The notes under the pieces were generated by a model. The model had not been told where the DNA came from. It saw only the letters and a list, made by a program, of their open reading frames with translations, and did not search any database. From a virus, in the IMG/VR virus record IMGVR_UViG_3300047550_003795, positions 1 through 35,431 of that record: a stretch of 35,431 bases of DNA. One strand, 5' to 3'. Of the stretch, positions 11,436-32,853 are shown one piece after another. Position numbers and translations under genes: made by a program. Every line of letters begins with the position of its first letter. Within the stretch, counting starts at the first letter, position 1.

Positions 11436-11602
11436 AAGACTATATCAGAGATCCAAAAACTGGAGCCTTGTTCTTCAACAATCCACAAAAGGAAGAGGAA
11501 ATATTGAGGAATAGAAATCTAAATGCCGAGATGGAATCCATGAAAGAGGAAATAAATAGTCTTAAGAGACTCTTAAACGAACTACTAGTAAAGAGAAATT
11601 GA
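11432..11602 (+). CDS. Small helical protein, 56 aa, unknown function
   Basis: A short gene overlapping the end of the DUF4815 gene by an ATGA, with its stop one base before the next ATG. The 56-aa product starts MKDYIRDPKTGALFFNNPQK and continues as a charged amphipathic helix (KEEEILRNRN, then MKEEINSLKRLLNELLVKRN) with heptad-like leucine and isoleucine spacing, so a short coiled coil is likely. The exact fit between its neighbours argues that it is real. Proteins beginning with a similar DPKTGALFFND phrase are, as I recall, found in tail clusters of other myoviruses, but no function is known to me. A chaperone or a small trimerisation or linker component of the fibre base is conceivable (inference). 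Confidence 0.7.
   Translation: MKDYIRDPKTGALFFNNPQKEEEILRNRNLNAEMESMKEEINSLKRLLNELLVKRN
11551..11558 (+). promoter_or_regulatory. Candidate T4-type late promoter (AATAAATA)
   Basis: AATAAATA followed by GT matches the T4 late promoter TATAAATA at 7 of 8 positions and ends 45 bases before the 868-aa fibre gene. It lies inside the 56-aa gene. The same octamer, followed by GG, precedes gp19 and the prohead core gene. Chance occurrence in AT-rich coding DNA cannot be excluded. Confidence 0.3.
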
Positions 11603-11603
11603 A

Positions 11604-14210: not shown

Positions 14211-14220
14211 AGGATAAAAC

Positions 14221-16137
14221 ATGGGAACAAGTGCATTCGATCCTGTAGTGTTGGCTGATGTTCGTTCTGTGAAGAACAAGATCGATATTTCTGGCCTAAC
14301 GAGCGGAGTAACAACATTCTCTCCTGGAGATGTGATTCGATACGATCCCTCGACCGACAAGTATCTTCTTGCAAAGGCAGATACGCAGGTCAATGCCATG
14401 ATATTGGGTGTTGTCGAAACCATAAATGGAAATGACATGACAATAGTCTATTCTGGTGAGATAAATCTACCAGATTCGGTCTACACCTCCATGACAGGAG
14501 CAACGGCTGCACAGGTTCTGTATCTTTCGGATACAAACGCAGGCAAGTTGACTGCAACCCCACCGTCAAATCAAGGAAGTGTGATAAAACCAGTTGTGGT
14601 TGTCAGCGGAACTCTACAGAGTTCATCTCCAAGTCCCTTGGGAAACATAGATGGAATCGTGGTGAACACCACAGGAACAATAATAACTGGTGACTCGACA
14701 GTGGATCTGAGTGATATACAACCTGTGGGTTCAATAAGTGCTTTTGCTGGCTCGACTGCAAGCATTCCTTCGGGATGGCAACTATGTGATGGTGGACTTC
14801 TTAGCATTTCTCAATATCCCGATCTATATGCTGCGGTAAATGAAGGAAAACTCTATGGATTTGCACAGCAAATCACACTAACATATGACACTGCCAATTC
14901 TTCCACACCACTAAATTCATCGAATCTGGTTGGTGCAAGATTTACTGTGTCGAGGCCGTCCATAACATTTCTATGCACCATATTAAGTGGAACTGTAACA
15001 TCAACCGGAAACATAGACAACGCCGAAGTGCTAGTAGAGCCTACGGACAGCAATTCCGGAAACTATCACAACAGTCAGGTGATAACCAATGATGTGGCAA
15101 GAATGGAAGTTCTCGTTGGTGGGGTGTATACTTCAATCAGTTCCATATACACGGTTTCCGCATCTGGTGGTCAGCCAAAGACTAAGTTCAGAAAGCCCGA
15201 TATAAGATCAAGATTCATAATAGGCGACTCAACCGGTTATACCGGTGAAATGAATACCACATTCGATTCGTATACTCTAGGAATGTATGGAGGAGAAGAA
15301 GAACATACTCTCAGCACATCGGAACTTGCCTTACACGATCATTCTTCTTCTGGACTCTTTGTCTCCATAGCAAATAATCCAACCGTGACACACAATCTTA
15401 CCACCGCAGTTGCTGGTGCTCATAGCCATGTGGTCAGACTATTGAATCCAGTAAATGGAAGAACCAATCTCGGTACATTGAATCAGTTCAATTATTTCGG
15501 TTCAACACAGGTTCCGGCGGTAACTCCAGGATCAGTGGATACATCACCAAATAATCAGGTAATCACCGAAACCATCACTGGTCATAGTCATGCAGTAACA
15601 GGACAAATAACGGTAAACACCGCAAGTCTATCCCCAACTGTCAATGGAACTGTATCAAGCACTGGTTCTGGATTACCCCACAATAATGTTCCGCAGCACA
15701 TAGTAATGCTGTGGATAATAAAGGTTCGAAAAGATTCATATGCCAAGATACTGAAACTCGGTCCTTCGAGTGGGGGTGCTGTTCTGGCAAAAAACACCGC
15801 CAAGAAATGGGCGAGAATGAGTTCCGGTGCTGGAGCAACGATAGACATAGCATATGGTTCATGGGGAACAGTCAATAGAATTGGTAACGGAAATTATATT
15901 CTGAATCACAACTACATAAATGATGTTGATGGAAACAGTGCAGAAGCCACCAAATACATAATTGAGACAACGATAAGCAAGACACAAGGCTCAACCGCCA
16001 TGTTGTTTGCGAATCCATATGGAACTACGGGTGGATACACATTTGGAATTCAGATTTACGATGTTGTTGGTGCTACACATAGTGATAAATTTGATTATCT
16101 AAACATAGTAATGTACGGTGGGGGAACCGCTGTATGA
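14221..16137 (+). CDS. Tail-collar fibre (gp12-like short tail fibre)
   Basis: A 638-aa protein with a phage tail-collar domain: PVGSISAFAGSTASIPSGWQ followed by LCDGGLLSISQYPDLYAAV near residues 167-205, and the partner segment FRKPDIRSRFIIG near residue 323. About 115 residues are inserted between halves that are normally close. Downstream are His pairs LHDH (about 369), AHSH (about 400) and GHSH (about 454), reminiscent of the metal-binding HxH of T4 gp12, then VPQHIVMLWIIKV (about 490-503), the usual end of the collar module. Residues 505-638 form an additional unrecognised tip domain. Residues about 57-147 carry a copy of the module found twice in the preceding fibre. AAGGA six bases before the ATG supports the start. 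The likely role is receptor binding or baseplate attachment. Confidence 0.8.
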   Translation: MGTSAFDPVVLADVRSVKNKIDISGLTSGVTTFSPGDVIRYDPSTDKYLLAKADTQVNAMILGVVETINGNDMTIVYSGEINLPDSVYTSMTGATAAQVLYLSDTNAGKLTATPPSNQGSVIKPVVVVSGTLQSSSPSPLGNIDGIVVNTTGTIITGDSTVDLSDIQPVGSISAFAGSTASIPSGWQLCDGGLLSISQYPDLYAAVNEGKLYGFAQQITLTYDTANSSTPLNSSNLVGARFTVSRPSITFLCTILSGTVTSTGNIDNAEVLVEPTDSNSGNYHNSQVITNDVARMEVLVGGVYTSISSIYTVSASGGQPKTKFRKPDIRSRFIIGDSTGYTGEMNTTFDSYTLGMYGGEEEHTLSTSELALHDHSSSGLFVSIANNPTVTHNLTTAVAGAHSHVVRLLNPVNGRTNLGTLNQFNYFGSTQVPAVTPGSVDTSPNNQVITETITGHSHAVTGQITVNTASLSPTVNGTVSSTGSGLPHNNVPQHIVMLWIIKVRKDSYAKILKLGPSSGGAVLAKNTAKKWARMSSGAGATIDIAYGSWGTVNRIGNGNYILNHNYINDVDGNSAEATKYIIETTISKTQGSTAMLFANPYGTTGGYTFGIQIYDVVGATHSDKFDYLNIVMYGGGTAV

Positions 16138-16151
16138 TAAAGGATCATTGA

Positions 16152-18020
16152 ATGGCTGAATTTTCGGCACATAGAGTAACGCTTCCTGCTGGAGATCGTG
16201 TGGCTATTGCCACTGATTTGAATTTATATGTGTCTCCCTATGGAGACGATGTAATCAATACTGGTACGGATTCAAGTTCTCCATTTAAAACAATTGAACG
16301 AGCCATTCAATGGTTAGGAGACAAGTATATTTCAAAAACCGGATTTGTCACCATAAATTTTGCGGCTGGAATATACGATCTGACCAGCGAATTGGTGTTG
16401 GACCATCCAGAGGGAGAAAGAATAGCACTTGTGGGCGCAGAGCCAGAAACATTGATTCTTCAGAGTGTGGATTCGTACAAGACAAGAGGATTCACGGCTG
16501 ATCAATTCTCTCCATTCTATTCAAACACTAGACATCTTATTGGTATAAAGTGCGTGAGACCGGATGATTCAGCAGGTTATGCTGAAATAGATACGGGAGT
16601 TGGATCTCTGAACTCCATGGGATTGGTTGAAAATGGATATGGAGTGATAGTAGAAGATTATGATTTTGTATACAACAATTCTTACAATCCAATTGGATTT
16701 TATACATCTTTTCCAAACAATGCCAGAAATCTAATTGTTCGCGGTGCATCGATAATGGGTTGTCATAAACTGATTGGTGCAAGTGGTAATGGTTCATTCT
16801 TGACGCTTGAATCAACGATTCGCGACGATTGGATGGCTGTTCCGTCAATTAGTTCTGGTCAAACTATTAGATATTTTTGGGGAAACGCTCAAAATGGAGT
16901 TACTTATGACTTTGCTGGCATCCCCGGCGGATATTGTGGCAATGCTTCTGATGTCAGTGAAGATATTAGCAATAATTCATTAAATAATGCTAGATATAAA
17001 CATACATTTAGCACAGTTCCCATTGGATACTATGGAACAGTTAGTACTTCGGGAATACCAGCATCAGCGGTGGCAAATGTCATTGGATTGACACTTCCAC
17101 TGGGTCAACTATCTCCATCTGTTGGTGGAACAGCAAATTTTACACAGAATACTATTTATGAGGGAAACGGAACAAATAGGAGTGCGTCCTATTCCTATGC
17201 TTGCGGAAGCACATATTCTTTCATAAATGACACAATTTTGTTGGGAAATGGAAATAACCATCATAAATGGGATGCTCTTGTATCTCCACCAGGATCTCCA
17301 CCAGGATTTGGAAATACTTTGTCACTTAGAACAAATAATTCCAACAGAATAACCGTTAAGGTAATACCAACCGTATTCAGAAGATTTGGAAACATAATCT
17401 CAATACCGACATCTGGACTTAGAAAAATAAAGAACATATTCTTCAATGGAAAGAATATGTGCTATCACTATGGAATGATTTCTAGCGGACTTTCGTCAAC
17501 TGAAAGTTACAGCAACAAGATGGCTATCCATGCATCCAATTCAAAGTTGGGTGAGGCAGTCGAAAATGAACCATCAGGACTTGGATCTGGCCTATGCACA
17601 AATGTCGGTATAGCAAATTTTCATACCGCGGTATTCTGCGACAATCATACTCGTTGCAATTTGGGAAAGATAGTGGCATCAAACTGTTCGTTTGGCATAT
17701 ATGCAAATGATGGTTCTTCGGTGCAGACTTCTGGTAGTGTATGCACTGGTATTGCATCAAATGCATTTTCTGCACTTAATTCCTCAACCATGACATTGGA
17801 AAGATGCTATTCAGCATTTACGGGACAATCACTTGTCACTCTTAAACTGAAGAGCGGTGGAACTTTTGCCGAGAATTCCTTTATTCCTGGTCAGACATAC
17901 TCCTCTCCAGATGGAAAAATAACGGGAACCGTATGGGATTGGAATTCAAGGGATAGGGTTCTCAATATAGCAGTAAGGGTTGGTTTAGCCGAAGGTGGCG
18001 ATCCAAAGACACAGAGATAA
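16152..18020 (+). CDS. Beta-helix tail fibre/tailspike-like protein
   Basis: A 622-aa protein. Residues 23-60 (NLYVSPYGDD, then SSPFKTIERAIQWLGDKY) and the following INFAAGIYDLTSEL and GERIALVGAE are the entry to a parallel right-handed beta-helix of the pectate-lyase-like type, in which YVSPxGxD...TSPFxTIxxA is typical. Asn/Gly/Ser-rich coils follow (YGVIVEDYDF, NLIVRGASIMGC, FGIYANDGSSVQ). Such folds serve as fibre stalks or as enzymatic tailspikes that cleave surface polysaccharide. I cannot identify catalytic residues, so enzymatic activity is unproven. AAAGGA lies seven bases before the ATG. Three neighbouring genes are also fibre-like. Confidence 0.7.
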   Translation: MAEFSAHRVTLPAGDRVAIATDLNLYVSPYGDDVINTGTDSSSPFKTIERAIQWLGDKYISKTGFVTINFAAGIYDLTSELVLDHPEGERIALVGAEPETLILQSVDSYKTRGFTADQFSPFYSNTRHLIGIKCVRPDDSAGYAEIDTGVGSLNSMGLVENGYGVIVEDYDFVYNNSYNPIGFYTSFPNNARNLIVRGASIMGCHKLIGASGNGSFLTLESTIRDDWMAVPSISSGQTIRYFWGNAQNGVTYDFAGIPGGYCGNASDVSEDISNNSLNNARYKHTFSTVPIGYYGTVSTSGIPASAVANVIGLTLPLGQLSPSVGGTANFTQNTIYEGNGTNRSASYSYACGSTYSFINDTILLGNGNNHHKWDALVSPPGSPPGFGNTLSLRTNNSNRITVKVIPTVFRRFGNIISIPTSGLRKIKNIFFNGKNMCYHYGMISSGLSSTESYSNKMAIHASNSKLGEAVENEPSGLGSGLCTNVGIANFHTAVFCDNHTRCNLGKIVASNCSFGIYANDGSSVQTSGSVCTGIASNAFSALNSSTMTLERCYSAFTGQSLVTLKLKSGGTFAENSFIPGQTYSSPDGKITGTVWDWNSRDRVLNIAVRVGLAEGGDPKTQR

Positions 18021-18031
18021 CGGAAATATAG

Positions 18032-19045
18032 ATGCCAATAATAAAAGAAACATCTTCTGGCGTAATTGAAACATATGGTGTTCCGAAGGACATTGCAGAT
18101 GCAAATACCACAACCACAACAGCCAGCGGATATGGCACTGAAGTAACATCCGTGAATGTTGGATCTATAAGTTTTCCATATCAATATGATATCATAACCA
18201 CACAGAAGGTTGTTGGAAATGGATATGTCTCGTCTGGATCATCAAGTATCAAGTGCAGTTCTTCCGTCGCACTTCTATCAAGAAATTTTGCATTTACAGC
18301 ACTGAGAAACTCTTCCTTGGAAATGAGTTCCTGCGCAACAAATATCGCGCAAAGAGGAATTTGTGCTCTTTATTCATCAACCGCAACCGTAAAAAATTGT
18401 GTTTCATGTCTATCGGAAGTAAATTACCTATCCGCCAATTGTTCTTCGTTGATATTACAGGCATCTGCATCAATGCTTCCATTCAGATATGGGGTTGACA
18501 CTCAGTATGACTCAAGCGTATCGCTTCAGGATTTTGAGACAGTAACTGCAAATTTTGCTGGAGCATTTGCCATACAGAGTTCCAACATACCAGTTCCAAC
18601 TCATTTCAGAAGCATATACAATTCTTTTGTTGAAAATACATCGTATTCTCTAACTACAAAACCACTTGCTTCAGGTTTTTCTGGGCCAGAGTTTGATTCC
18701 AAGCCATTGAATCTTGTTTGGTCTCAAATAGCATTTGGGGTTGGTATTGCTTCTGGTAGTACTGCTGCAACAAACATACTAGGAACTCCAGTGGCGAGTT
18801 ATAGATATGTTCCATTTTCACATAGTCTTGATTGGTCCAATGTATATCCTGCATCTCTGGTTGCAGCAAGTACAGCGATAAACACACCAGGATTTGTATC
18901 AATGCTAACTAGACCAAGAAACAATTATAGTTCAGTAAAACCACCGGCGACCATATTTAAAGCGGAGGATAACTCGGGGTTGATTGGAACTAATACTGGA
19001 TTGACTGGCGATTTTTCAATATTCGATCTGATAAATTCGCTTTAG
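18032..19045 (+). CDS. Beta-rich structural protein of the fibre cassette, unknown
   Basis: A 337-aa protein that I do not recognise. The N-terminal third is Thr/Ser-rich (IADANTTTTTASGYGTEVTS). Residues about 70-150 show short repeated strands with Ser and Cys (NSSLEMSSCATNIAQRG, STATVKNCVSC, CSSLILQASAS) that look like beta-helix coils similar to those in the upstream 622-aa protein. The rest contains LVWSQIAFGVGIASGSTAATN and ends IFDLINSL. Cysteines are concentrated in the coil region, which is unusual in the window. Only a weak CGGAAA lies before the ATG. Position between two adhesin-type genes suggests a fibre component or partner of the upstream protein (inference). Confidence 0.6.
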   Translation: MPIIKETSSGVIETYGVPKDIADANTTTTTASGYGTEVTSVNVGSISFPYQYDIITTQKVVGNGYVSSGSSSIKCSSSVALLSRNFAFTALRNSSLEMSSCATNIAQRGICALYSSTATVKNCVSCLSEVNYLSANCSSLILQASASMLPFRYGVDTQYDSSVSLQDFETVTANFAGAFAIQSSNIPVPTHFRSIYNSFVENTSYSLTTKPLASGFSGPEFDSKPLNLVWSQIAFGVGIASGSTAATNILGTPVASYRYVPFSHSLDWSNVYPASLVAASTAINTPGFVSMLTRPRNNYSSVKPPATIFKAEDNSGLIGTNTGLTGDFSIFDLINSL

Positions 19046-19061
19046 TCGGGAGAAACTCAAG

Positions 19062-21008
19062 ATGGCTTACAGGCTATGCACGCTAGACGCAGATGGAAAG
19101 ATAACTTCTGTTTCATTGGAAAGTTATGCTGACTCAATAAATCCGGATGTTAGGCTGTCCGCTAATCGAACCAGTTATCATTTCATCAATGAAGATTCAT
19201 TATCATCTTTGTTGACAAGTCCTGTCGTTGGAATTGATGATCAGTCCACGATTTCAATAGGTCAGGATGGATCAGTAGCAATTCGTATTCCCGATTCACC
19301 ACCTTCTATTTTAGCACAATACGATCCAAGAACAGAGGTGGTTCTCTATACACCAGACACACCATTGCAGTTCACTCATGGTGACAGAATTGTGCAGGAT
19401 GTAACTAAAGTAACGACTGTTTACAATTCTCTCGACACAACTACGATACCATACCATTCCACAACACAAAAGAAATTTGGCCTGTCATCGGGTAAATTCA
19501 CAAAAAATATAAACGGATATACTGGTTCTGGCTTGGTTGTTTCAAACATAAGCAAGACGAACTACACGGGCGGATATACCGCACCACACAATAACCTTGC
19601 TGCCAATTCGACTGCCTCATATTCAATGGAGTTGTTTTTTAGACCAGAGAGCATAGCAACAAATTTCACTTTGATGCAGAAGGGTCCAACGGGAGCATCT
19701 GCAAACTGGAAACTTGGATATGATAGTTCCGCAGGATTCCTGCAATTTGCCTGGCAATCCTATGGTTATGCATCCGGATACAACTATTCGGAAAATATAG
19801 TGAATACCGCAGGCTTGACACTGAACACCTGGCATCATGTGGCTGTTTCCGTAATAAGAAATGTAACCTCTGGAACAGGATATCTCATATCGGGATATTT
19901 CAATGGTAAGAATGTGTTTACGCGAAGCGTTACTGCATCCTCTTTTCCGGAGATGAGATATGATAATCCAATATACATCGGATGTGACCATCTTGGAAAC
20001 GAATATTTTGACGGATATATTGACTCGACAAGAGTTCTGGAGTCTGGAAGCACATATGGAATATTCGGAAAAACCGGATATGGATTTCTTCCTCACGCAT
20101 CTGGAACTCTTTCAGTTCCAACCACGCAGGGATTTACAAGAAATCCTGAAACTGCATTCATATTGAACTTCAATGGTATCGAAGGAAGCAGTGCTTTTTA
20201 TGGAGAAAGCAAGGATTTTTTCTCTGGAACAGTGACGAGATTGGCAAACCTTACTCTAGGCCCAACAGGACCAGCATATGCCAACAAGAGTGAAATAGGA
20301 GTAAGGAATGTCGTTCGGTATACTCTGGGTTACACTGGTGCAACTGGATTCTCCGATCCAACTGGTTACAGTCTATCCTATGGACATATAGTTCTTCCTT
20401 ATGTCGCTGCATATGGAAACACCACATCTCATGGTTATGATTTCATATACAATCTGTCTGATGTTTACGATAATGATCTGAGCATAGGAGTTTTCAGACA
20501 GAATTACAGGATAGATGCAGTCTATGATGCAAGTAGATCCCTGGTTGCGATGATAGAAGGTGCATATGGAAACATCGGCTCATGTGGAAGTGTATTTCAG
20601 ACTCAGTACGGTACGAATCCATTCGTAAGGCTTTTTTCAAATGGTGGGGGAATGTCGTATGGAATAGGGTTGTCGCACAATTCCCTGTACATAGATCCAC
20701 TTAATCAGAATACCATGAGGTACATAATGGATAGTGGTTATCTTGCTAGCCAAGGTATAACTGCTTCGACTTATTCATTCATAGATGGTAGAGGAATAAC
20801 CAGAAATATAAATTCTACCGATATGATAAATCTTAGACTTGATCTAATTTCTTATCAAAATAGCCTTATTAATCAAACTGATACAACCATAGCATCGATA
20901 AATTCGGCAGCAACGAAAAATGAAGTTAAGTTTGCCAAACTGAATAAATCTTCTGGCTCCATTTATTCCATAATAAGTCCAAAGGAAGAATTCAATACCT
21001 ACGAATGA
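19062..21008 (+). CDS. LamG/concanavalin-like domain fibre protein
   Basis: A 648-aa protein. Residues about 187-325 have the pattern of a LamG/concanavalin A-like jelly roll: YSMELFFRPES, FTLMQKGPTG, LNTWHHVAVSVIR, GYFNGKNVF, PIYIGCDHLGNEYFDGYIDS. Such domains commonly bind glycans. The N-terminal 110 residues include ISIGQDGSVAIRI and are unrecognised. The C-terminus (MINLRLDLISYQNSLINQ, TTIASINSAATKNEVKFAKL) is predicted by eye to be helical and could be a trimeric coiled coil. GGGAGA eight bases before the ATG supports the start; the stop overlaps the next ATG. It is probably another tail fibre or a decoration adhesin. Confidence 0.7.
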   Translation: MAYRLCTLDADGKITSVSLESYADSINPDVRLSANRTSYHFINEDSLSSLLTSPVVGIDDQSTISIGQDGSVAIRIPDSPPSILAQYDPRTEVVLYTPDTPLQFTHGDRIVQDVTKVTTVYNSLDTTTIPYHSTTQKKFGLSSGKFTKNINGYTGSGLVVSNISKTNYTGGYTAPHNNLAANSTASYSMELFFRPESIATNFTLMQKGPTGASANWKLGYDSSAGFLQFAWQSYGYASGYNYSENIVNTAGLTLNTWHHVAVSVIRNVTSGTGYLISGYFNGKNVFTRSVTASSFPEMRYDNPIYIGCDHLGNEYFDGYIDSTRVLESGSTYGIFGKTGYGFLPHASGTLSVPTTQGFTRNPETAFILNFNGIEGSSAFYGESKDFFSGTVTRLANLTLGPTGPAYANKSEIGVRNVVRYTLGYTGATGFSDPTGYSLSYGHIVLPYVAAYGNTTSHGYDFIYNLSDVYDNDLSIGVFRQNYRIDAVYDASRSLVAMIEGAYGNIGSCGSVFQTQYGTNPFVRLFSNGGGMSYGIGLSHNSLYIDPLNQNTMRYIMDSGYLASQGITASTYSFIDGRGITRNINSTDMINLRLDLISYQNSLINQTDTTIASINSAATKNEVKFAKLNKSSGSIYSIISPKEEFNTYE

Positions 21009-23716: not shown

Positions 23717-24196
23717 ATGAGTAGAATGGATCAAAATCTATCCGAAATATTGAATATGAATCCAGATTCACAGGCAATCGCTGTGAAACCACCAAATGCC
23801 ATTGAGGTCAAAGTGGATATGGATGATGCGGACAAAGATTTCCAAAAGGCAAGGGAAAATCTAAAGGAACTTGTTAATCTCGGATTTCAAGCCATCGATG
23901 GTGTACTTAAGGTTGCGAGCGAGGGAGATTCTCCTAGAGCCTATGAAGTGGTGGCTCAGATGATCAAGGCAGTTGCCGAAACCAACAAAGATCTTGTTGA
24001 ACTTCATCAGAGAATGAAAACCATAAAGCAGGACAAATACGAGACCAAGACTACCAACAATACAACAAATGCAATATTTCTTGGATCAACCAAGGAGTTG
24101 CAGGAACTTATTAATCCAAAGAGAAGTTTTGCGAAAGCATTGCAGGAAACCGATGTGATTATCGATACATCGAAAAAGATCATTGACAATGGCTGA
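23717..24196 (+). CDS. 16: Terminase small subunit gp16
   Basis: A 159-aa protein, close to T4 gp16 (164 aa). gp16 forms rings that recognise DNA and stimulate the gp17 motor. The product is largely helical with long charged heptad-like segments (DADKDFQKARENLKELVNLG, VAQMIKAVAETNKDLVELHQ), typical of the central oligomerisation coiled coil. The C-terminus (NAIFLGSTKELQELINPKR) is an element often seen in T4-type gp16. GGAG at 23706-23709, seven bases before the ATG, supports the start. It overlaps the start of gp17, the usual partner gene. Confidence 0.88.
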   Translation: MSRMDQNLSEILNMNPDSQAIAVKPPNAIEVKVDMDDADKDFQKARENLKELVNLGFQAIDGVLKVASEGDSPRAYEVVAQMIKAVAETNKDLVELHQRMKTIKQDKYETKTTNNTTNAIFLGSTKELQELINPKRSFAKALQETDVIIDTSKKIIDNG

Positions 24197-25847
24197 TACA
24201 AAGAACAACAAGAACTATCTTGGTAATCCCAATCTGAAGGCAACGGATGTTAGGATAGATTGGACAAAAGAGCAACTTGAAGAATACACCAAGTGTTCTA
24301 GAGATCCAATCTATTTCATTCAGAAGTATGTGAAGATCATCTCCTTGGATAGGGGTCTTGTACCGTTCGAACTTTATGATTTTCAAGAGGAGATGGTTCG
24401 AACAATCCATAACAACAGATTCGTGATCGCCAAGTTGCCCCGTCAGAGCGGCAAGTCCACCACGGTCACGGCATACATGCTACATTACATCCTGTTCAAT
24501 CAGAGTGTCAATGTAGCCATACTAGCCAATAAACTAAGCACGGCTAGAGAACTGTTATCTCGCCTAAAATTGGCATATGAATATCTTCCAAAATGGTTGC
24601 AGCAGGGTATTCTTGAGTGGAACAAGGGATCGATTCAACTGGAGAATGGCTCAAGGGTTCTTGCATCAGCCACCTCATCATCTGCCGTCCGTGGTGGATC
24701 CTTCAACATGATCTTCCTTGACGAGTTTGCCTATGTTCCTCAGAATGTGGCAGAGGAGTTCTTCTCCTCAGTCTACCCCACCATCTCGTCAGGTCAGGAG
24801 ACGAAGGTGTTCATCGTCTCCACTCCCCATGGAATGAACCTCTACTACAAGTTGTGGACGGATGCCACCAATCAGCGAAACTCATATATTCCAATCGATG
24901 TGCATTGGTCGGATGTGCCTGGTCGTGATGAGAAGTGGAAGGAAGAGACCATTGCCAATACCTCCGAGGAGCAGTTCCGCACGGAGTTTGAGTGTGACTT
25001 CGTTGGATCCATTCATACCCTGATATCCCCGTCAAAGTTGAAGACCTTGGCATATGTCGATCCGATCTATAAGAACGGAGAAGGGTTCAAGGTCTATGCA
25101 AAGCCAGAGGAGAAGCACACCTATGTCATCTGCGTGGATGTCTCGCGTGGACAGAACATCGACTACTCTGCATTCACGGTCATGGACATCACTACCACTC
25201 CTTACAGATTGGTGGCAACATTCAAGAACAACTCAATGTCACCAATGGTATTTCCCAATGCCATCCATGCTGCGGCAAAGCAATACAACAATGCATATGT
25301 ACTGGTCGAGATCAATGACATGGGTGGCCAGGTTGCCGAGATTATTCACAGTGAACTTGAGTATGAGAACCTATTGTCTGCCACTCTTCGTGGTAGGAAG
25401 GGGCAAGTTCTTGACGGTGGATTCGGCGGTGGAGTAAGTCAGTTCGGAGTCCGCATGAGCGAGGTGGTCAAGAGGACAGGATGCTCCATCCTCAAGTCTC
25501 TAGTTGAGGGGGAGAAGATCGTCATACAGGATTTCGATGTGATCAAGGAGATGTTTGCTTTTGTTGCCAAGAAGAATTCCTTTGAGGCAGAGGTGGGATA
25601 TCACGACGATCTGGTTATGACCCTGGTGATATTTGGTTGGCTTTCCAGTCAGCCATACTTCAAGGATCTTTCTAATCTGGATATTAGAAAGGATATCTAT
25701 CAGGACAAGATCAAGCAGGTGGAAGAAGAGATGACCCCATTTGGATTCGTGGACGATGGTATTGAAGATATGGATGCGGTGGAGAAAACTCCCGATGGAA
25801 CTCTTTGGTTCAAGCAAAGGGAACAGGATATGAATTCCTGGTACTGA
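24189..25847 (+). CDS. 17: Terminase large subunit gp17 (packaging ATPase/nuclease)
   Basis: A 552-aa protein (T4 610 aa). It powers DNA translocation through the portal and cuts the concatemer. Near residues 83-91 is the Walker A motif LPRQSGKST, and near 174-182 the Walker B motif with catalytic Glu, MIFLDEFAY. The motif IVSTPHGMN follows. The RNase H-like nuclease begins at VICVDVSRG (Asp near 317), with VLVEINDMG and a late YHDDLVMTL. All key residues expected are present. The ATG at 24189, inside the gp16 end, is preferred to an in-frame TTG six bases upstream; neither has a strong Shine-Dalgarno. Base composition is odd: several 60-base rows between 24421 and 25560 are 50-62% G+C, against 30-40% in adjacent genes. 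Confidence 0.97.
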   Translation: MADTKNNKNYLGNPNLKATDVRIDWTKEQLEEYTKCSRDPIYFIQKYVKIISLDRGLVPFELYDFQEEMVRTIHNNRFVIAKLPRQSGKSTTVTAYMLHYILFNQSVNVAILANKLSTARELLSRLKLAYEYLPKWLQQGILEWNKGSIQLENGSRVLASATSSSAVRGGSFNMIFLDEFAYVPQNVAEEFFSSVYPTISSGQETKVFIVSTPHGMNLYYKLWTDATNQRNSYIPIDVHWSDVPGRDEKWKEETIANTSEEQFRTEFECDFVGSIHTLISPSKLKTLAYVDPIYKNGEGFKVYAKPEEKHTYVICVDVSRGQNIDYSAFTVMDITTTPYRLVATFKNNSMSPMVFPNAIHAAAKQYNNAYVLVEINDMGGQVAEIIHSELEYENLLSATLRGRKGQVLDGGFGGGVSQFGVRMSEVVKRTGCSILKSLVEGEKIVIQDFDVIKEMFAFVAKKNSFEAEVGYHDDLVMTLVIFGWLSSQPYFKDLSNLDIRKDIYQDKIKQVEEEMTPFGFVDDGIEDMDAVEKTPDGTLWFKQREQDMNSWY

Positions 25848-25900
25848 TTCAAATACCAAAAATCCTACATATCTCATAGATTCATCGGGAGAACACATAA

Positions 25901-27799
25901 ATGAGCAGACTACCAGTACAACTTAGCCCCGGTGTGAACTATTCGGAAATAGACCTCACAACCACGGTTCCAAATGTCGCCACTGCGATTGGAGCATTTG
26001 CGGGGGTCTTTCAATGGGGACCAGCGGAAAAAATTACCACAATCACCTCCGAGGATGAACTAAAGGCAGTCTTTGGTCAACCTCCAAGAGGAGAAGATGG
26101 AATAGATTTTCATTGTGCAGCGAATTTTCTTCAGTATAGTAGAAATCTGAAGGTTGTTCGTGTTGTCGGAACAGACGAAACCAATGCAAATTCTTCGGGA
26201 ATAACAGGTCTTCGATATGTAAATGAAGATGTCATGGCTTCTCTTGGATCTGGTTTGACATATCCATTCTATGCAAAATATCCTGGAGTTTTAGGAAATT
26301 CTCTCAAGGTTGTGATGATAGATGGCGATGGAGAGACAACTCTTACGACCACATCAGCAGCAGCAGTTGCCACAAATGTGCTTACATTGAGTGCAAGCGT
26401 TGGTGGAACATTTGAAGAAAATGATAAATTGATTTATCAAACTTCAAACTTTTCACAAACATTCTTGGTTGATTCCGCATCTGGAAACAATGTCACTCTT
26501 AAGAACTATGTCTCAAGTACGATTCCTTCTGGAGCCACAATCAAGTATCGAAGCAAGTATGCAGATTTATTCCAATTGTCTGCGAGTACAAGCACTCAGA
26601 CTGCTACCAGGGGTGGAAACAATGATGAAGTGAATGTGGTTGTTGTCGATGAAGATGGAAACTTCACTGGAACCAGAGGAGCGATTCTTGAGGTTTTTGA
26701 AAATGCCTCCAAGGCATATGATGCCAAGAATAATGACGGGGTTCCGAATTATGTTGCCAGTGTCATAAATAACAATTCAAATTATGTCTGGGCATCGAAT
26801 GTTGAATCTCTGTGGAATCAGACAATTCCAAGGGATATGACTACACAATTTGCGGACATTTCCGGAGGATACGCAACCGTATCAAGATATAGTTTCAGTG
26901 GTGCAACAGCATCTGCAAACAACAATTCCATGTTGTGGATTGGTGGATATAGTAAGTTTGCCGATAGAGATAATGTTGATATATCCCTACTGATCTCTGG
27001 TAGAGCAGATTCAAATAATGTTAAATTGCTTGCAGATCTTGCCAATGATAGAAAGGATTGTGTTCTATTTGTATCTCCTCTATTGAGTGATGTGCTAAAT
27101 AAGACTCAATCACAGGCAGCCAGCAATGTAATAACAACTAGAAACACGACATATGGAATCAATTCCTCTTATGTCGTTATGGATAGTGGTTGGAAATACA
27201 TTTATGACAAGTATAACGATATTTTCCGTTATATTCCATTGAATGCGGACATCGCTGGATTGTGTGCTCGCACGGAATTCAACACACAATCATGGTACTC
27301 ACCTGCGGGTTTGAATCGGGGAAACATCAAGAATGTCATTAAACTGGCATTCAATCCAGATCAGGCAGCACGCGATCTTCTCTATGTGGCTGGAGTAAAT
27401 CCGGTTGCCACATTCAGCGGAGAGGGAACTCTTCTATATGGTGACAAGACTCTTCTCAAGAAACCAAGTGCCTTTGACAGAATAAATGTCCGTAGGTTGT
27501 TCATAACAATTGAGAAGGCTATTTCAGCAGCCGCTAAATATTCCTTGTTTGAGGTAAATGACGAATTTACCCGTTCCCAATTTAGGAACCTTGTAATTCC
27601 GTACCTCCGTAATGTTCAAGCACAGAGGGGAATAACTGACTTCAAGGTTGTCTGTGACGAGACAAACAACACCGCTGAAGTAATCGACAACAACCAATTT
27701 GTTGCTGACATTTATGTGAAACCAAATAGATCTGTAAACTTCATTCAACTGAATTTCATTGCGACAAGAACAGACAGCACATTCACTGAGATTATCTAA
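25901..27799 (+). CDS. 18: Tail sheath protein gp18, copy A
   Basis: A 632-aa protein, close to T4 gp18 (659 aa). It polymerises around the tube and contracts at infection. The N-terminus (LSPGVNYSEIDLTTTVPNVA, GAFAGVFQWGPAEK) and C-terminus (DKTLLKKPSAFDRINVRRLF, EFTRSQFRNLVIPYLRNVQA, ETNNTAEVIDNNQFVADIYV) are the conserved sheath core. Residues about 140-240 form a variable, beta-rich middle. GGGAGA eight bases before the ATG supports the start. The 53-base gap after gp17 is one of the longest in the window and shows no clear promoter or terminator. It is the standard-length member of a tandem pair and probably the main sheath subunit (inference). Confidence 0.95.
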   Translation: MSRLPVQLSPGVNYSEIDLTTTVPNVATAIGAFAGVFQWGPAEKITTITSEDELKAVFGQPPRGEDGIDFHCAANFLQYSRNLKVVRVVGTDETNANSSGITGLRYVNEDVMASLGSGLTYPFYAKYPGVLGNSLKVVMIDGDGETTLTTTSAAAVATNVLTLSASVGGTFEENDKLIYQTSNFSQTFLVDSASGNNVTLKNYVSSTIPSGATIKYRSKYADLFQLSASTSTQTATRGGNNDEVNVVVVDEDGNFTGTRGAILEVFENASKAYDAKNNDGVPNYVASVINNNSNYVWASNVESLWNQTIPRDMTTQFADISGGYATVSRYSFSGATASANNNSMLWIGGYSKFADRDNVDISLLISGRADSNNVKLLADLANDRKDCVLFVSPLLSDVLNKTQSQAASNVITTRNTTYGINSSYVVMDSGWKYIYDKYNDIFRYIPLNADIAGLCARTEFNTQSWYSPAGLNRGNIKNVIKLAFNPDQAARDLLYVAGVNPVATFSGEGTLLYGDKTLLKKPSAFDRINVRRLFITIEKAISAAAKYSLFEVNDEFTRSQFRNLVIPYLRNVQAQRGITDFKVVCDETNNTAEVIDNNQFVADIYVKPNRSVNFIQLNFIATRTDSTFTEII

Positions 27800-27808
27800 G
27801 GAGAGAAA

Positions 27809-30550
27809 ATGGCTAGTCCTATTCCTACTCAACTAAGCCCGGGCGTAAATGTATCTGAAATCGATCTCTCTGAATTTGTTCAGCCACAGGCTGCAAACAG
27901 TGCTGGAATGGTTGGAGTTTTCAACTGGGGTCCGGGTTCAATAGCAACAACTGTTTCAAGTGAATCTGAATTGGCTGGAATTTTTGGAAAGCCAACACTT
28001 GATCCATCAGATACCTTGAGCGAAGACGATTTTCTTTCTGCATCAAATTTTCTAAGATATTCCAACAATCTCAAGGTTATCAGGATTGTTCCTGCGCTTG
28101 ATGCAAATGCCGCATCTCTTGATCCAGGAATATCTTCGATCAGCAACTGCACCTACAGAATAATCAAGAATGAAGATGAATTCAGAAATATCGGTGGTTT
28201 TTCTGCAAGCGATGGAATAGAACCGATTGCAAGATTCCGTGCAAAGTATCCAGGTAATTTTGGAAATTCACTTAAGGTTATAGTTTATGATGGATCAACT
28301 GCTGAGAGCAGCAGTCCACAATACATTGACTATATTCTTGCAAGAGGATACACTCTTGGAACCACGGGTATTCAGGAAGGAACTATTGGATATACCTTCT
28401 CATATGATTATACAAATGGAATATCGTTTGATGGAAGTGTAATAAGTTCTGTTGGTGTTACAGCAAACAATTCATTGAAGTATTTGATGATCACTTTGAT
28501 GAATCCAGGTACATCTGCAAGTGCTTTCATAGATCAACTATCGAATCCAAGCGGATTTTCCACTCTATATGCCACGGGAACAACAACAGCAAACTATACA
28601 CTTACTCAGAATGGAACGAATCCAACAGGCAACTACACCAATTATCATGAAATTGAGGATGCAACTCTTGGAAATGGAACCAAGTACAATCCTTTTGCAA
28701 AATACAACATCAGTTCCGCCAGCAATATAAATCCAAAGAATGTGTTTGCAAGACCAAGTCAGATAATAAATGATGCAGTTGACATCATTCTTATCGACGG
28801 TGACAACACCAACATGAACTATGGGGCAAGGCTTGGCTCGACATACCATGGAGTAACTGCACCAATAACAAGATTGCATGGATTCACTTGGATAAATCAG
28901 GCAGGAAGTCCTTCAATAACCCACTTTGGTGAGTTGATATTCAACGAAACCTTGTTCGAACTGTATCGAAACACCTGGTCTAGGGTCTACAAGGATCTGT
29001 TTAATGTTGAAAAGACAAGTCCATCAGTAAATACCTTCAACAATGGATGGGCATTGCTTGCTGGTCTAACAACTCCATCTTCCGTGAACAAACTATATGA
29101 GACGGTGAATGGAGTATCGACTGCAATAATTGGATTGACATTCATGGCTGATGGAACATGTGGTGGCATCAGGCAGGATTTTACCTATGCACTTAAGCAG
29201 TTTGGTCGTTCAACTGCAAGAACATCGGTCGAGAATAAGGAAGATTTCTCCATTGTTCGTATATTCGACAAAGTTCCTGGAACATCGGATTATGCAAAAA
29301 GCCTTGGTGGTTTAAACGATGAATTGAGCATTGCCGTAATCGACGCTGGTGGTAAGTTTGGACCAAAGAATTCGGTTCTTGAAAAATTTGAGTTGTTGTC
29401 AAAGGCTGTTGATGGAAGAAATCTAAACAATGAAAATGTATTCTATAGAGATTATATCAACAGAAATTCATCCTATGTCTATCTAACTCGTCCATTTGGA
29501 TTTGCTGGTGGTGGTTCAACTCTTTCAACTGCATCTACATCGTTTGGTGATATAACAAGCAGATATGCTCTTCCAGATGGAATAACATACACCATCAATG
29601 GCTACTACGAGTCTTCATTCGGATTTGGAAGTTCAAGCACCAGCAATCCAACATTGCAGGAAAAATTGAATGCTTATTCTATCTTTGCAGATGATAACTC
29701 TTCCGTTGACATACTATTCATGCAGGAATCATCGGTTGCAAACGATTCGACAAACGAAACCGCTGCACTTGAGCGTTCTGTGTATGATGCAGTTATAGAC
29801 AAGAGGAAAGACACGATTTTTGTTCTTCCCACACCAAAGCCAAGTTCATTCACACAGCATTCATCACAGGCAACATCTAATGCAATAAACTATAGAAAGG
29901 CTTTGTTGAATCTTCCCCCAAACTCATATACTGTGCTGGTCGCTGGAAGAAAATTGTATTTTGATGCATTCAATAATCAAATTCGTAGAATGGCATTGTC
30001 ATCTGATGTGGCAGGTATTTTATCTGCTCAGGAAATACCATGGGAGTCACCAGCAGGATTCTCGCGCGGAGCATTGAGAAATGTAATAAGACTTGAAACA
30101 AACTACAGCAAGACGAATAGAGATGACTTGTACAAGAATCAAGTAAATACATTCGTAGAGTTCAATGACGGATCTGGAACAGTATTGTTTGGCGACAAGA
30201 CCTTGTTGACAAAACCAAGTGCATTTGATCGTATCAATGTTCGCCGTGTATTCGTAGCGATTGAAAAGGCTATTGCAAAGTCAGCAAAGTATTCTCTGTT
30301 CGAGTTCAATGACGAATTCAGCAGATCTCAGTTCAGAAATCTTGTGAATCCATTCCTTGCAACCATTCAGGCACAAAGAGGAATACTTGATTTCAAGGTT
30401 GTCTGTGACGAGACAAACAATACTGCTGAAGTAATAGACAAGAATCAGTTTGTTGCGGATATCTATGTCAAGCCAGCCAAATCAATTAATTTCATTCAGT
30501 TGAACTTTATTGCAACAAGAAGCGATTTCAATCTAACAACCACCGAATAA
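27809..30550 (+). CDS. Tail sheath protein gp18 paralogue, copy B (enlarged)
   Basis: A 913-aa second sheath protein directly after copy A, with AAGGAG six bases or so before the ATG. Its start (QLSPGVNVSEIDLSEFVQPQ, MVGVFNWGPG) and end (DKTLLTKPSAFDRINVRRVF, EFSRSQFRNLVNPFLATIQA, ETNNTAEVIDKNQFVADIYV) follow copy A closely, and 29 bases (27641-27669 and 30392-30420) are identical. The conserved blocks AKYPGxxGNSLKV and NDELxxxVxDxxGxF are about 340 residues apart here and about 105 in copy A, so roughly 235 residues are added near residues 165-500. That insert matches no domain I recognise. Both conserved halves are intact with no stop, so it looks functional. It could co-assemble with copy A or cover part of the tail. 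Confidence 0.9.
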   Translation: MASPIPTQLSPGVNVSEIDLSEFVQPQAANSAGMVGVFNWGPGSIATTVSSESELAGIFGKPTLDPSDTLSEDDFLSASNFLRYSNNLKVIRIVPALDANAASLDPGISSISNCTYRIIKNEDEFRNIGGFSASDGIEPIARFRAKYPGNFGNSLKVIVYDGSTAESSSPQYIDYILARGYTLGTTGIQEGTIGYTFSYDYTNGISFDGSVISSVGVTANNSLKYLMITLMNPGTSASAFIDQLSNPSGFSTLYATGTTTANYTLTQNGTNPTGNYTNYHEIEDATLGNGTKYNPFAKYNISSASNINPKNVFARPSQIINDAVDIILIDGDNTNMNYGARLGSTYHGVTAPITRLHGFTWINQAGSPSITHFGELIFNETLFELYRNTWSRVYKDLFNVEKTSPSVNTFNNGWALLAGLTTPSSVNKLYETVNGVSTAIIGLTFMADGTCGGIRQDFTYALKQFGRSTARTSVENKEDFSIVRIFDKVPGTSDYAKSLGGLNDELSIAVIDAGGKFGPKNSVLEKFELLSKAVDGRNLNNENVFYRDYINRNSSYVYLTRPFGFAGGGSTLSTASTSFGDITSRYALPDGITYTINGYYESSFGFGSSSTSNPTLQEKLNAYSIFADDNSSVDILFMQESSVANDSTNETAALERSVYDAVIDKRKDTIFVLPTPKPSSFTQHSSQATSNAINYRKALLNLPPNSYTVLVAGRKLYFDAFNNQIRRMALSSDVAGILSAQEIPWESPAGFSRGALRNVIRLETNYSKTNRDDLYKNQVNTFVEFNDGSGTVLFGDKTLLTKPSAFDRINVRRVFVAIEKAIAKSAKYSLFEFNDEFSRSQFRNLVNPFLATIQAQRGILDFKVVCDETNNTAEVIDKNQFVADIYVKPAKSINFIQLNFIATRSDFNLTTTE

Positions 30551-30572: not shown

Positions 30573-31142
30573 ATGAACATCAAGAACTTTGCCAATGCAA
30601 TGCAGGGATCGGGCGTAAAGCCATCTCTATTTGAAGTTCAGGGATCGATAGGCGGAACCGAAAGTCCACTGACGCCGTTCCTTGTTCGTGCAGCATCTTT
30701 GCCTGGCACTGCATTGGGGACAATCGAAATACCATATCGTGGAAGAAGAATAAAGGTTCCTGGCGATAGAACCTATGCTGATTGGCAGATAACAATCATC
30801 AATGACAACAAGTTCCAACTGAGAAATCTGTTTGAACTTTGGGTCAATGCCATACAGTCAGCAGAAAGAAATGTTGCTACGAATGAATTCATAAATTTTG
30901 CACAACCAGTATTCTGCAATTGGACTGTCAATCAATTGAATCGTGCAGGAAAGCCAGTCAAGGCTTATACCCTGATAGGTTGCTTCCCAACTGAAATATC
31001 ACCAATAGAACTAAGTTATGACGCAAACGATCAGATAGAGGAATTCTCCGTTTCATTGGCATACTCGTACTTTACATCGAATGTTGGAACACCAGATGCA
31101 AATCCAAAGCCTGGTTTGAATTCCTTTACGCCTGGTGGATAA
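30573..31142 (+). CDS. 19: Tail tube protein gp19
   Basis: A 189-aa protein (T4 gp19 163 aa) that stacks as hexameric rings to form the DNA-conducting inner tube. Family pattern: RPSLFEVQ-like start (VKPSLFEVQGSIGG), PFLVRAASLPGTALGTIEIP, YRGRRIKVPGDRTYADWQIT, NAMP-like FELWVNAIQSAERN, then YTLIGCFPTEISPIELSYDA and IEEFSVSLAYSYF. AGGAG at 30561-30565, seven bases before the ATG, is strong. The C-terminal Pro/Gly tail (PDANPKPGLNSFTPGG) is longer than in T4. It follows the sheath genes and precedes the portal as in T4. Confidence 0.95.
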   Translation: MNIKNFANAMQGSGVKPSLFEVQGSIGGTESPLTPFLVRAASLPGTALGTIEIPYRGRRIKVPGDRTYADWQITIINDNKFQLRNLFELWVNAIQSAERNVATNEFINFAQPVFCNWTVNQLNRAGKPVKAYTLIGCFPTEISPIELSYDANDQIEEFSVSLAYSYFTSNVGTPDANPKPGLNSFTPGG

Positions 31143-31164: not shown

Positions 31165-32853
31165 ATGGCATTTGAACTTTTTGGTTTTTCATTCGGTAGA
31201 ACTGGTAAAACAGAGCCAACCTTGAAACAGGACGAGGTGACTGCAAATGCTTCGTTTGCACCTCCAGATTTTGAAGATGGTGCTTTTCCTATTTCATCTG
31301 GTGTATATTTCAGTTCATACATGGATTTTGACGGAGGAATAAAATCTTCCGCAGACATGATAAAGAAATATCGCGAGATGGCTTTGTATCCAGAAGTTGA
31401 GATGGCTATAGATGACATATGCAATGAAGCAATTGTATATGATGATACAAAAAAGCCAGTTGAAATAGAGGTGGAAGGGAAAAGCCTCTCTCCCAAGATA
31501 CAGGAAAAGATAGTAGAGGAATTTCATGAAATTCTTCGACTGTTGAAATTTCAGGACAAGGGATACGAGATATTCAGAAAATGGTATATCGATGGCCGTT
31601 TATATTATCACAAGATAATAGACAAGGAAAATCCGAAGAGAGGTCTTGTTGAAATAAGACCAGTTGAATCTACTCACATCAGAAAAGTAAGGAATGTCCT
31701 CAAGAAAAAGGACAAGGATACGAGTGCTGATGTGGTTGCAAAGGTAGAGGAGTTCTTTCTCTATAATGATAGGGAAGAAATATCAAACAGCACTGCTGCA
31801 TTTACCAATACTGCTCCTGTGAAGGGTGTGAAGATAACTACAGATTCAATTTGCTATGTTCATAGTGGATTGTTTGATTCTGGAAAAAAGAGGGTTCTAT
31901 CTTATATTCATAAGGCATTAAAACCGTTGAATCAACTCAGGATGGTTGAAGATGCAGTGGTGATCTATAGATTATCCCGTGCTCCAGAAAGAAGAGTATT
32001 CTATATTGATGTCGGAAATCTCCCAAAGAACAAGGCAGAGCAGTATCTTCGTGAAATAATGAATCGCTATCGAAATAAACTCGTCTACGATGCCTCCACG
32101 GGGGAATTGAAGGATGAGCGTAGGCACATGACCATGCTTGAGGACTTCTGGTTGCCAAGACGAGAAGGTGGTAAGGGAACAGAGATAAGCACCTTGCCAG
32201 GTGGTCAAAATCTTGGACAGATGGATGATGTGCTGTATTTTCAGAAAAAACTCTATAAGTCCTTGAATGTTCCAACTTCCCGTCTTGAGACTGATCAAAA
32301 CGGATTCAATATGGGAAGACAGGCTGAGATAACCAGAGATGAACTCAAGTTCTTCCGCTTTGTCGAGCGTTTGCGCAAGAAGTTTTCCGAATTGTTCCTA
32401 GAACTATTGAAGACGCAGTTGATTTTGAAGGGTGTAATCACCAAGGATGATTGGGAATATCTACATCCTCTGATTCGATTTGATTTCCGCAAGGATTCGT
32501 ATTTTACGGAATCGAAGGAAAATGAGATATTGGGAACACGATTGAATCTTGTCATGTCTGCGGACCCGTATCTCGGAAAATACTTCTCAAAGAGATATGT
32601 CCAAAAGAACATAATGAGAATGGCGGATGATGAGATTGAGGATATTGATAATCAAATACAGAGCGAAAAAGCGATTGATCCAGAGTCATCAATGCCAACT
32701 CAGGTAACTACACAGGTTGATACTCAAAGACTTCTCGGTGATGTGGAGAATCAACAGCAATTCCAGGCACAACATGATGAATTGATGCTACAGAAGACAA
32801 TCGGTGTTGACAAGGAAAAGACCAAGAAATCTCAAACATCAAAGAAAAAATAA
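31165..32853 (+). CDS. 20: Portal protein gp20
   Basis: A 562-aa protein (T4 524 aa). The dodecameric portal starts prohead assembly and is the DNA channel used by gp17. Distinctive segments: KYREMALYPEVEMAIDDICN (around 70-90), RPVESTHIRKVR, then near residue 275 RVFYIDVGNLPKNKAEQYL, MNRYRNKLVYDASTGEL, LEDFWLPRREGGKGTEISTL, PGGQNLGQMDDVLYFQKKLY and SLNVPTSRLE, a very close match to the T4 pattern. The C-terminal 60 residues are Gln/Lys-rich and probably disordered. A GGAGAG lies just upstream. An ATG four bases earlier (31161) is followed by a stop after four codons and is not the start. Confidence 0.96.
   Translation: MAFELFGFSFGRTGKTEPTLKQDEVTANASFAPPDFEDGAFPISSGVYFSSYMDFDGGIKSSADMIKKYREMALYPEVEMAIDDICNEAIVYDDTKKPVEIEVEGKSLSPKIQEKIVEEFHEILRLLKFQDKGYEIFRKWYIDGRLYYHKIIDKENPKRGLVEIRPVESTHIRKVRNVLKKKDKDTSADVVAKVEEFFLYNDREEISNSTAAFTNTAPVKGVKITTDSICYVHSGLFDSGKKRVLSYIHKALKPLNQLRMVEDAVVIYRLSRAPERRVFYIDVGNLPKNKAEQYLREIMNRYRNKLVYDASTGELKDERRHMTMLEDFWLPRREGGKGTEISTLPGGQNLGQMDDVLYFQKKLYKSLNVPTSRLETDQNGFNMGRQAEITRDELKFFRFVERLRKKFSELFLELLKTQLILKGVITKDDWEYLHPLIRFDFRKDSYFTESKENEILGTRLNLVMSADPYLGKYFSKRYVQKNIMRMADDEIEDIDNQIQSEKAIDPESSMPTQVTTQVDTQRLLGDVENQQQFQAQHDELMLQKTIGVDKEKTKKSQTSKKK

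Follow-up and report, generated by a model that had tools for sequence, protein, structure and literature searches.

A tandem pair of tail sheath genes with a hypervariable insert in the second copy in a clade of T4-like phages

Two sheath genes between gp17 and gp19

The IMG/VR record IMGVR_UViG_3300047550_003795 (35,431 nt, the whole of which is called the window here) represents part of the genome of an uncultured T4-like myovirus and contains two adjacent genes for homologues of the T4 tail sheath protein gp18. The two genes, called A and B, are separated by 9 bp and have a ribosome site each. They lie in a T4-like gene order as determined from PHROG and Pfam assignments: baseplate wedge genes, large fibre-region genes, gp13–gp17, the two sheath genes, gp19, gp20, gp21 and scaffold. 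Amongst known phages, Melnitz has the gp17 nearest to that of the window (63.5%). The T4 late promoter sequence TATAAATA was not found in the window, though its absence is not informative. The features of the locus are listed below, with the ratio of non-synonymous to synonymous divergence (dN/dS) where it was estimated.

24183..25847, + strand: gp17 large terminase, the upstream neighbour (PHROG terminase large subunit)
25887..25891, + strand: Shine-Dalgarno-like GGGAG before A (from the sequence; GGAG-type site in the relatives listed)
25901..27799, + strand: sheath A, the canonical gp18, 632 aa (PHROG 23, E 5e-123)
27455..27796, + strand: domain IV of A, the tube-side C-terminal domain (PF17482; 77% identity with domain IV of B)
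27798..27803, + strand: Shine-Dalgarno AAGGAG of B, overlapping the A stop codon (from the sequence)
27809..30550, + strand: sheath B, the enlarged paralogue, 913 aa (PHROG 23, E 5e-87)
27809..28297, + strand: N-terminal core of B, residues 1–163 (aligns with A 1–143; dN/dS 0.015–0.17)
28298..29233, + strand: hypervariable insert of B, residues 164–475, at the position of T4 gp18 domain I (alignment and variability; no family match)
29234..30547, + strand: C-terminal core of B, residues 476–913 (alignment; dN/dS 0.07–0.23)
30206..30547, + strand: domain IV of B (PF17482; 77% identity with A)
30573..31142, + strand: gp19 tail tube (PHROG 45)
31165..32853, + strand: gp20 portal, the downstream neighbour (PHROG 213)

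Both products belong to the T4 gp18 tail sheath family on the basis of domain order, PHROG 23 membership and location between gp17 and gp19. The Pfam domains Gp18_domIII_N, Phage_sheath_1 and Phage_sheath_1C were found in that order in each, with the Phage_sheath_1 score of B (28.5 bits) slightly below the cut-off of 31.4. The original prediction, made from the sequence alone, of two complete sheath genes side by side was borne out, with the open reading frames (ORFs) exactly as claimed. The similarity between A and B (E 8e-96) is far above chance and their overall identity is ~41%, made up of 77% in domain IV, 62% in the N-terminal arm, 44% in the N half of domain III and 32–34% in the domain II and domain III C halves. 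Homology between the cores is thus clear, but the earlier description of them as near-identical was overstated, with most of the core outside domain IV at 32–44%. Residues 164–475 of B (312 aa) lie opposite 70 residues of A, a net gain of 242 residues that is close to the enlargement of about 235 first reported.

A is also nearer to T4 gp18 than B (45 and 30% identity, respectively, in the domain III C half). A structural model of A with a predicted local distance difference test score (pLDDT) of 78.8 had as its best PDB match the sheath fold of 9f4a_SA, the variant sheath of Klebsiella phage KP1 (Z 34.6, root-mean-square deviation (rmsd) 4.3 over 461 residues, 37% identity), and also matched 9ev2_S1 (Z 34.4, rmsd 4.1 over 471 residues). 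A is an ordinary gp18 and B is the derived copy.

When viral contigs were searched with A and B, the same tandem was found in ~40 of them. Both genes were located between gp17 upstream and gp19 downstream in 28 of these, while 89 other T4-like contigs had a single sheath gene with the same flanks. Because the 28 contigs share the same pair with both flanks, the tandem is not an assembly artefact. The number of sheath genes is exactly two in one record of 156.6 kb (G001) and one each in G015 and G016, single-sheath relatives of similar size (157 and 161 kb). Across the clade, A is 630–638 aa and B is 892–1010 aa. Only a short gap separates the two genes, and in all 19 of the pairs listed B is immediately preceded by an AGGAG ribosome site located at or beside the A stop codon. 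The B frame is broken in the downstream part in G002 (L085; 850 + 72 aa) and split in L114, while near relatives are intact; this may be assembly error or recent mutation. The sole match to a genome contig was a contig of a metagenome-assembled genome with a 45% relative, too distant for a host to be named.

Age of the duplication and selection on the two copies

A phylogenetic tree of the sheath proteins was built from 482 core columns. In the full tree, the rows of Campylobacter phage CPt10 left the stem of B unplaced amongst long branches, and these rows were dropped in later trees. The A and B sequences each formed a monophyletic clade with support of 100/100. With the long-branched rows removed, A and B fell together on one side of a branch, with the single-copy sheaths on the other (92/78, not starred, and the grouping is therefore moderately supported). 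This topology fits a duplication on the stem of the tandem clade. The pair is an old trait found across the clade, which answers the check suggested in the original prediction of whether the duplication is ancient or local. The sister pairs largely matched in the A and B subtrees (W+L121, L107+L109, L004+L117, L087+L098, L101+L106 and L005+L104), and A and B were therefore inherited together. B is the faster-evolving copy, with a stem of ~1.2 changes per column, compared with ~0.5 for A.

In close pairs, dN/dS was 0.04–0.10 in A, 0.015–0.17 in the N-terminal core of B and 0.07–0.23 in its C-terminal core. Values this far below 1 indicate that both cores are under purifying selection and that neither copy is decaying, in agreement with the earlier argument from the intact cores. 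Relaxed selection (high dN/dS) on one copy, which the same prediction had named as one half of the evidence that would refute it, was seen in neither. The identity between A and B was equal within and between genomes in each core block, and there is therefore no sign of gene conversion between the two.

Variability, exchange and position of the insert

Of the segments measured in the head/tail module, the insert is the most variable; neither this variability nor the recombination described below was part of the original prediction. Its mean identity over 11 genomes was 35%, compared with 38–66% for the fibre-region and gp10-like genes and 72–90% for gp13–gp17, gp20 and gp21. In one pair (L005 and L102) the synonymous divergence (dS) was 0.056 in A and 0.047 in the N-terminal core of B and rose to 1.21 in the insert, where amino acid identity was 60%. 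Nucleotide identity along B in this pair was 97–100% in the first 160 codons, 54–73% in most of alignment columns 200–600, and back at 97–100% from approximately column 720. L102 and L104 differed at the ordinary level (dS of 0.30 in the insert and 0.29 in A), and the replaced allele is therefore that of L005. The same pattern was found for L001 and L086 (A 97% identical, insert 58%).

A drop in identity of more than 0.2 in the middle segment was seen in 10 of 16 close pairs for B, in none of 35 for A and in none of 40 for the single-copy sheaths. These pair counts are not independent, and a sign test on sister pairs is the fairer version; the B insert was less conserved than the middle of A in seven of seven (p 0.016). 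As judged from these alignments, insert alleles have been exchanged by recombination among these phages. Neither A nor the single-copy gp18 exhibited such a pattern of variability or exchange.

Motifs in the insert (e.g. YATGTT and PxGN) are retained across most of the clade, and it is therefore one homologous domain with variable parts. The earlier description of it as unrecognised was upheld, as no match was found in Pfam, PHROGs, PDB sequences or 50,697 phage records, and an origin by borrowing from another phage protein was rejected on the same searches. A search of viral contigs with the insert recovered 31 loci, nearly all in contigs already known to carry the A–B pair. An internal repeat of the sheath core was also rejected (hhalign probability <5%). 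A target of a diversity-generating retroelement would be expected to vary by point changes at template adenines only, with neither indels nor divergence at synonymous sites. The insert has many indels and is highly diverged at synonymous sites, and no reverse transcriptase (RVT_1) was detected in eight records that included the 156.6 kb G001, although several of them are fragments. Together these observations speak against a retroelement.

In an alignment with T4-type gp18, the insert lies opposite approximately residues 126–208 of T4. In T4 gp18, domain I (residues 98–188) projects outwards from the tail and takes no part in contacts between subunits. It is a binding site for the baseplate and for the long tail fibres in their retracted state, and retraction is blocked by three mutations in it (PMC3004832). 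Since the T4 domain protrudes without contacting other subunits, the insert is most likely outside the sheath. The earlier interpretation is supported in so far as the insert is at the position of an outward-facing domain.

The divergence of the two copies was also compared with that of their neighbours. A and the B core co-varied beyond what gp17 and gp20 account for (partial r 0.54, p 0.003), as did the B core and gp19 (partial r 0.48, p 0.001), each over 11 genomes. Between G004 (L210, L211) and G005 (L212, L213), nucleotide identity was ~0.91–1.00 in gp16–gp17 and gp20 and 0.48–0.92 in A, B and gp19. The gp20–gp21 side was also nearly identical, so that conserved sequence flanks a diverged A–B–gp19 block. 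In G004 and G005, this sheath–tube block appears to have been exchanged as one cassette, and the pattern fits A, B and gp19 being three proteins that need a mutual match.

Elsewhere in the module, positions 11604–21008 of the window contain five adjacent large genes (868, 638, 622, 337 and 648 aa) whose order is constant in the clade and whose sequence is very variable. A tail collar domain was identified in the second and a lectin-like domain (Pfam Laminin_G_3) in the last, and two are without a family match. A gene of 821 aa was found between gp15 and gp16 in G012 (L180) and G003 (L178, L179). Neither the window nor G009, its nearest relative, has this gene, and several other members have a gp15–gp16 gap of similar size. 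In G013 (L217), at approximately 8779–12307, gp17 seems to be interrupted; a single piece of 393 aa was found with extra sequence ahead of it, possibly an intron, an intein or a homing insertion.

A proposed two-component sheath and its relation to known systems

Our preferred reading, to which we give slightly better than even chances, is that A and B form a two-component contractile sheath, with a hypervariable domain displayed on the surface by B. A would be the ordinary gp18 subunit. B would be an old duplicate that has retained the tube-side, lattice-forming domain and acquired a 312-residue module at the place of the outward domain I of T4 gp18. Translated from its own conserved ribosome site right after A, B would assemble on the same tube, either mixed with A or in its own rings, and the module would then be on the outside of the tail. 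Beyond the anatomy, age, selection, insert position and module exchange described above, we infer the co-assembly of A and B and the surface display of the module, and propose that it contacts the host. The module would have diversified largely by homologous recombination, as receptor-contact proteins do, so the module most likely serves for accessory contact with some variable surface, probably that of the host envelope. The tail shaft may thus be involved in host contact. A stronger version, that beyond the fibres and baseplate the shaft is a polymorphic host-contact organ, a heteromeric sheath whose second subunit carries a hypervariable recombining adhesin domain of no described family, is put forward only tentatively.

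Several points weigh against this reading. The structural model obtained for B is of poor quality (pLDDT 55.5, predicted template modelling score 0.40, although residues ~171–470 were at 56–89 per ten-residue block), and because of this the surface exposure of the insert rests on the alignment to T4, in which there is little identity within the insert itself. The match of this model to 3foa_D (Z 14.3, rmsd 3.2 over 188 residues) comes from a model too poor to add much, and Foldseek and VIA searches with the whole of it returned sheath proteins and weak unrelated rows. In the insert, dN/dS was mostly 0.15–0.56 and not >1. The co-variation of A, B and gp19 could also be produced by the mere linkage of neighbouring genes. 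With core divergence removed, partial Mantel tests of the insert against the five fibre-region genes and the gp10-like gene gave partial r of -0.53 to 0.07 (all p >0.35; 7–11 genomes, low power), and this lack of tracking gives no help to a shared role in host range.

Of the other explanations, the best placed, though still improbable, is that B is a position-specific subunit making up one ring or a small number of rings adjoining the baseplate or neck, with A forming the trunk and the outward domain docking on the baseplate rim or collar. The strong separate B clade fits a specialised role, and there may be a parallel in the sheath paralogues of the AFP and PVC injection systems, which have multiple sheath proteins (PMC8894135); the chain in the PVC-type baseplate entry 6j0n_V has 393 residues, and those in the sheath entries 6j0b and 6j0c have 352–354. 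However, a domain docking on baseplate or neck proteins, which are conserved, would not be expected to exceed every other segment of the module in variability, nor to be swapped between near-identical phages.

The insert may instead vary to escape recognition of the sheath by a bacterial defence sensor or surface trap, without binding a receptor, and allele exchange on a conserved scaffold is a pattern of recognition escape too. We regard this as unlikely, as no such sensor is known from the present data and escape alone leaves unexplained why a 312-residue domain was gained and retained in every pair when A is without it. Slightly less likely again is that the domain docks the phage's own retracted fibres and changes because they change. 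The binding of these fibres by T4 domain I and the retraction mutants (PMC3004832) are in its favour, as is the fact that the fibre-region genes form the module's other highly variable part, but the partial Mantel tests lend it no support, within their low power.

A and B could also be alternatives, with each virion containing mainly one of them to give two particle types; for CP220, the authors could not tell whether the Gp18 types were mixed in one virion or separate (PMC2853527). This is very unlikely for A and B, whose cores co-vary beyond the flanking genes and whose genes are 9 bp apart with their own ribosome sites; no switch was noticed, though no repeat search was run. That B is a redundant duplicate heading for loss, as its longer stem and the broken frame in G002 might suggest, is already contradicted by its retention in 28 of 28 two-sheath loci with both flanks, by core dN/dS of 0.015–0.23 and by the open B frame in G001 and G007, the near relatives of G002.

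In contractile phages, the sheath is viewed as the conserved motor. With a two-component sheath of the kind we favour, the paralogue would have freed the outward domain from the motor, leaving A fixed, with the surface module of B exceeding the fibre-region genes in diversity. Should B be present on the tail, recognition or evasion of the host would extend to the tail shaft, and the clade is a natural experiment on how two subunit types are accommodated in one helical motor. The insert is also a marker that separates otherwise near-identical phages.

Amongst the closest known cases are Pseudomonas phage PaBG and the Lupandier group, in which a two-component sheath arose from a duplication in the group (Kurochkina 2018, cited in PMC7412058). 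PaBG also has two sheath paralogues of similar divergence (38% identity, compared with ~41% here) from a duplication within one clade; A and B are likewise two complete paralogues, placed together by the moderately supported 92/78 branch. Both PaBG proteins were detected in the structural proteome (PMC7412058). The products, gp76 and gp213, differ from A and B in being non-adjacent by number and near-equal in size (57.9 and 58.5 kDa). PaBG belongs to a different phage lineage, and a hypervariable insert is not mentioned in the passages of PMC7412058 consulted.

The Campylobacter phages CP220, CPt10 and IBB_35 (Firehammervirus) are T4-related and have several gp18 homologues, including one adjacent pair. 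Several Gp18 proteins in mature virions of CP220 (PMC2853527) and three in IBB_35 (PMC3322345) were identified through protein sequencing or mass spectrometry. In CPt10 (L162, 6004–9360), two adjacent sheath ORFs are complementary to the single gp18 of Vibrio phages: 0501 matches the N-terminal part and includes immunoglobulin-like (Ig-like) repeats, and 0511 matches mostly the remainder. Since they match complementary parts, this pair may be a split gp18 with Ig-like repeats, unlike the duplication seen here. The AFP and PVC extracellular contractile injection systems share the multiplicity of sheath proteins but are not viruses, and the available portion of PMC8894135 does not mention a comparable hypervariable domain.

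Large sheath proteins commonly have extra domains, which are often Ig-like, and an adhesion role has been hypothesised for them (PMC9230969). T4 gp18 and the single enlarged gp18 of cyanophages (S-CAM9, 885 aa; S-WAM1, 932 aa) belong to the same family as B, and the S-CAM9 gene is just after gp17, as here, but is present in one copy. The B insert had no sequence match to any of the phage records searched. Two-component phage sheaths have already been published for PaBG and the Campylobacter phages; judged against the open-access literature, the novelty here lies in a tandem pair that is conserved and of which the second copy alone has a hypervariable, recombining module.
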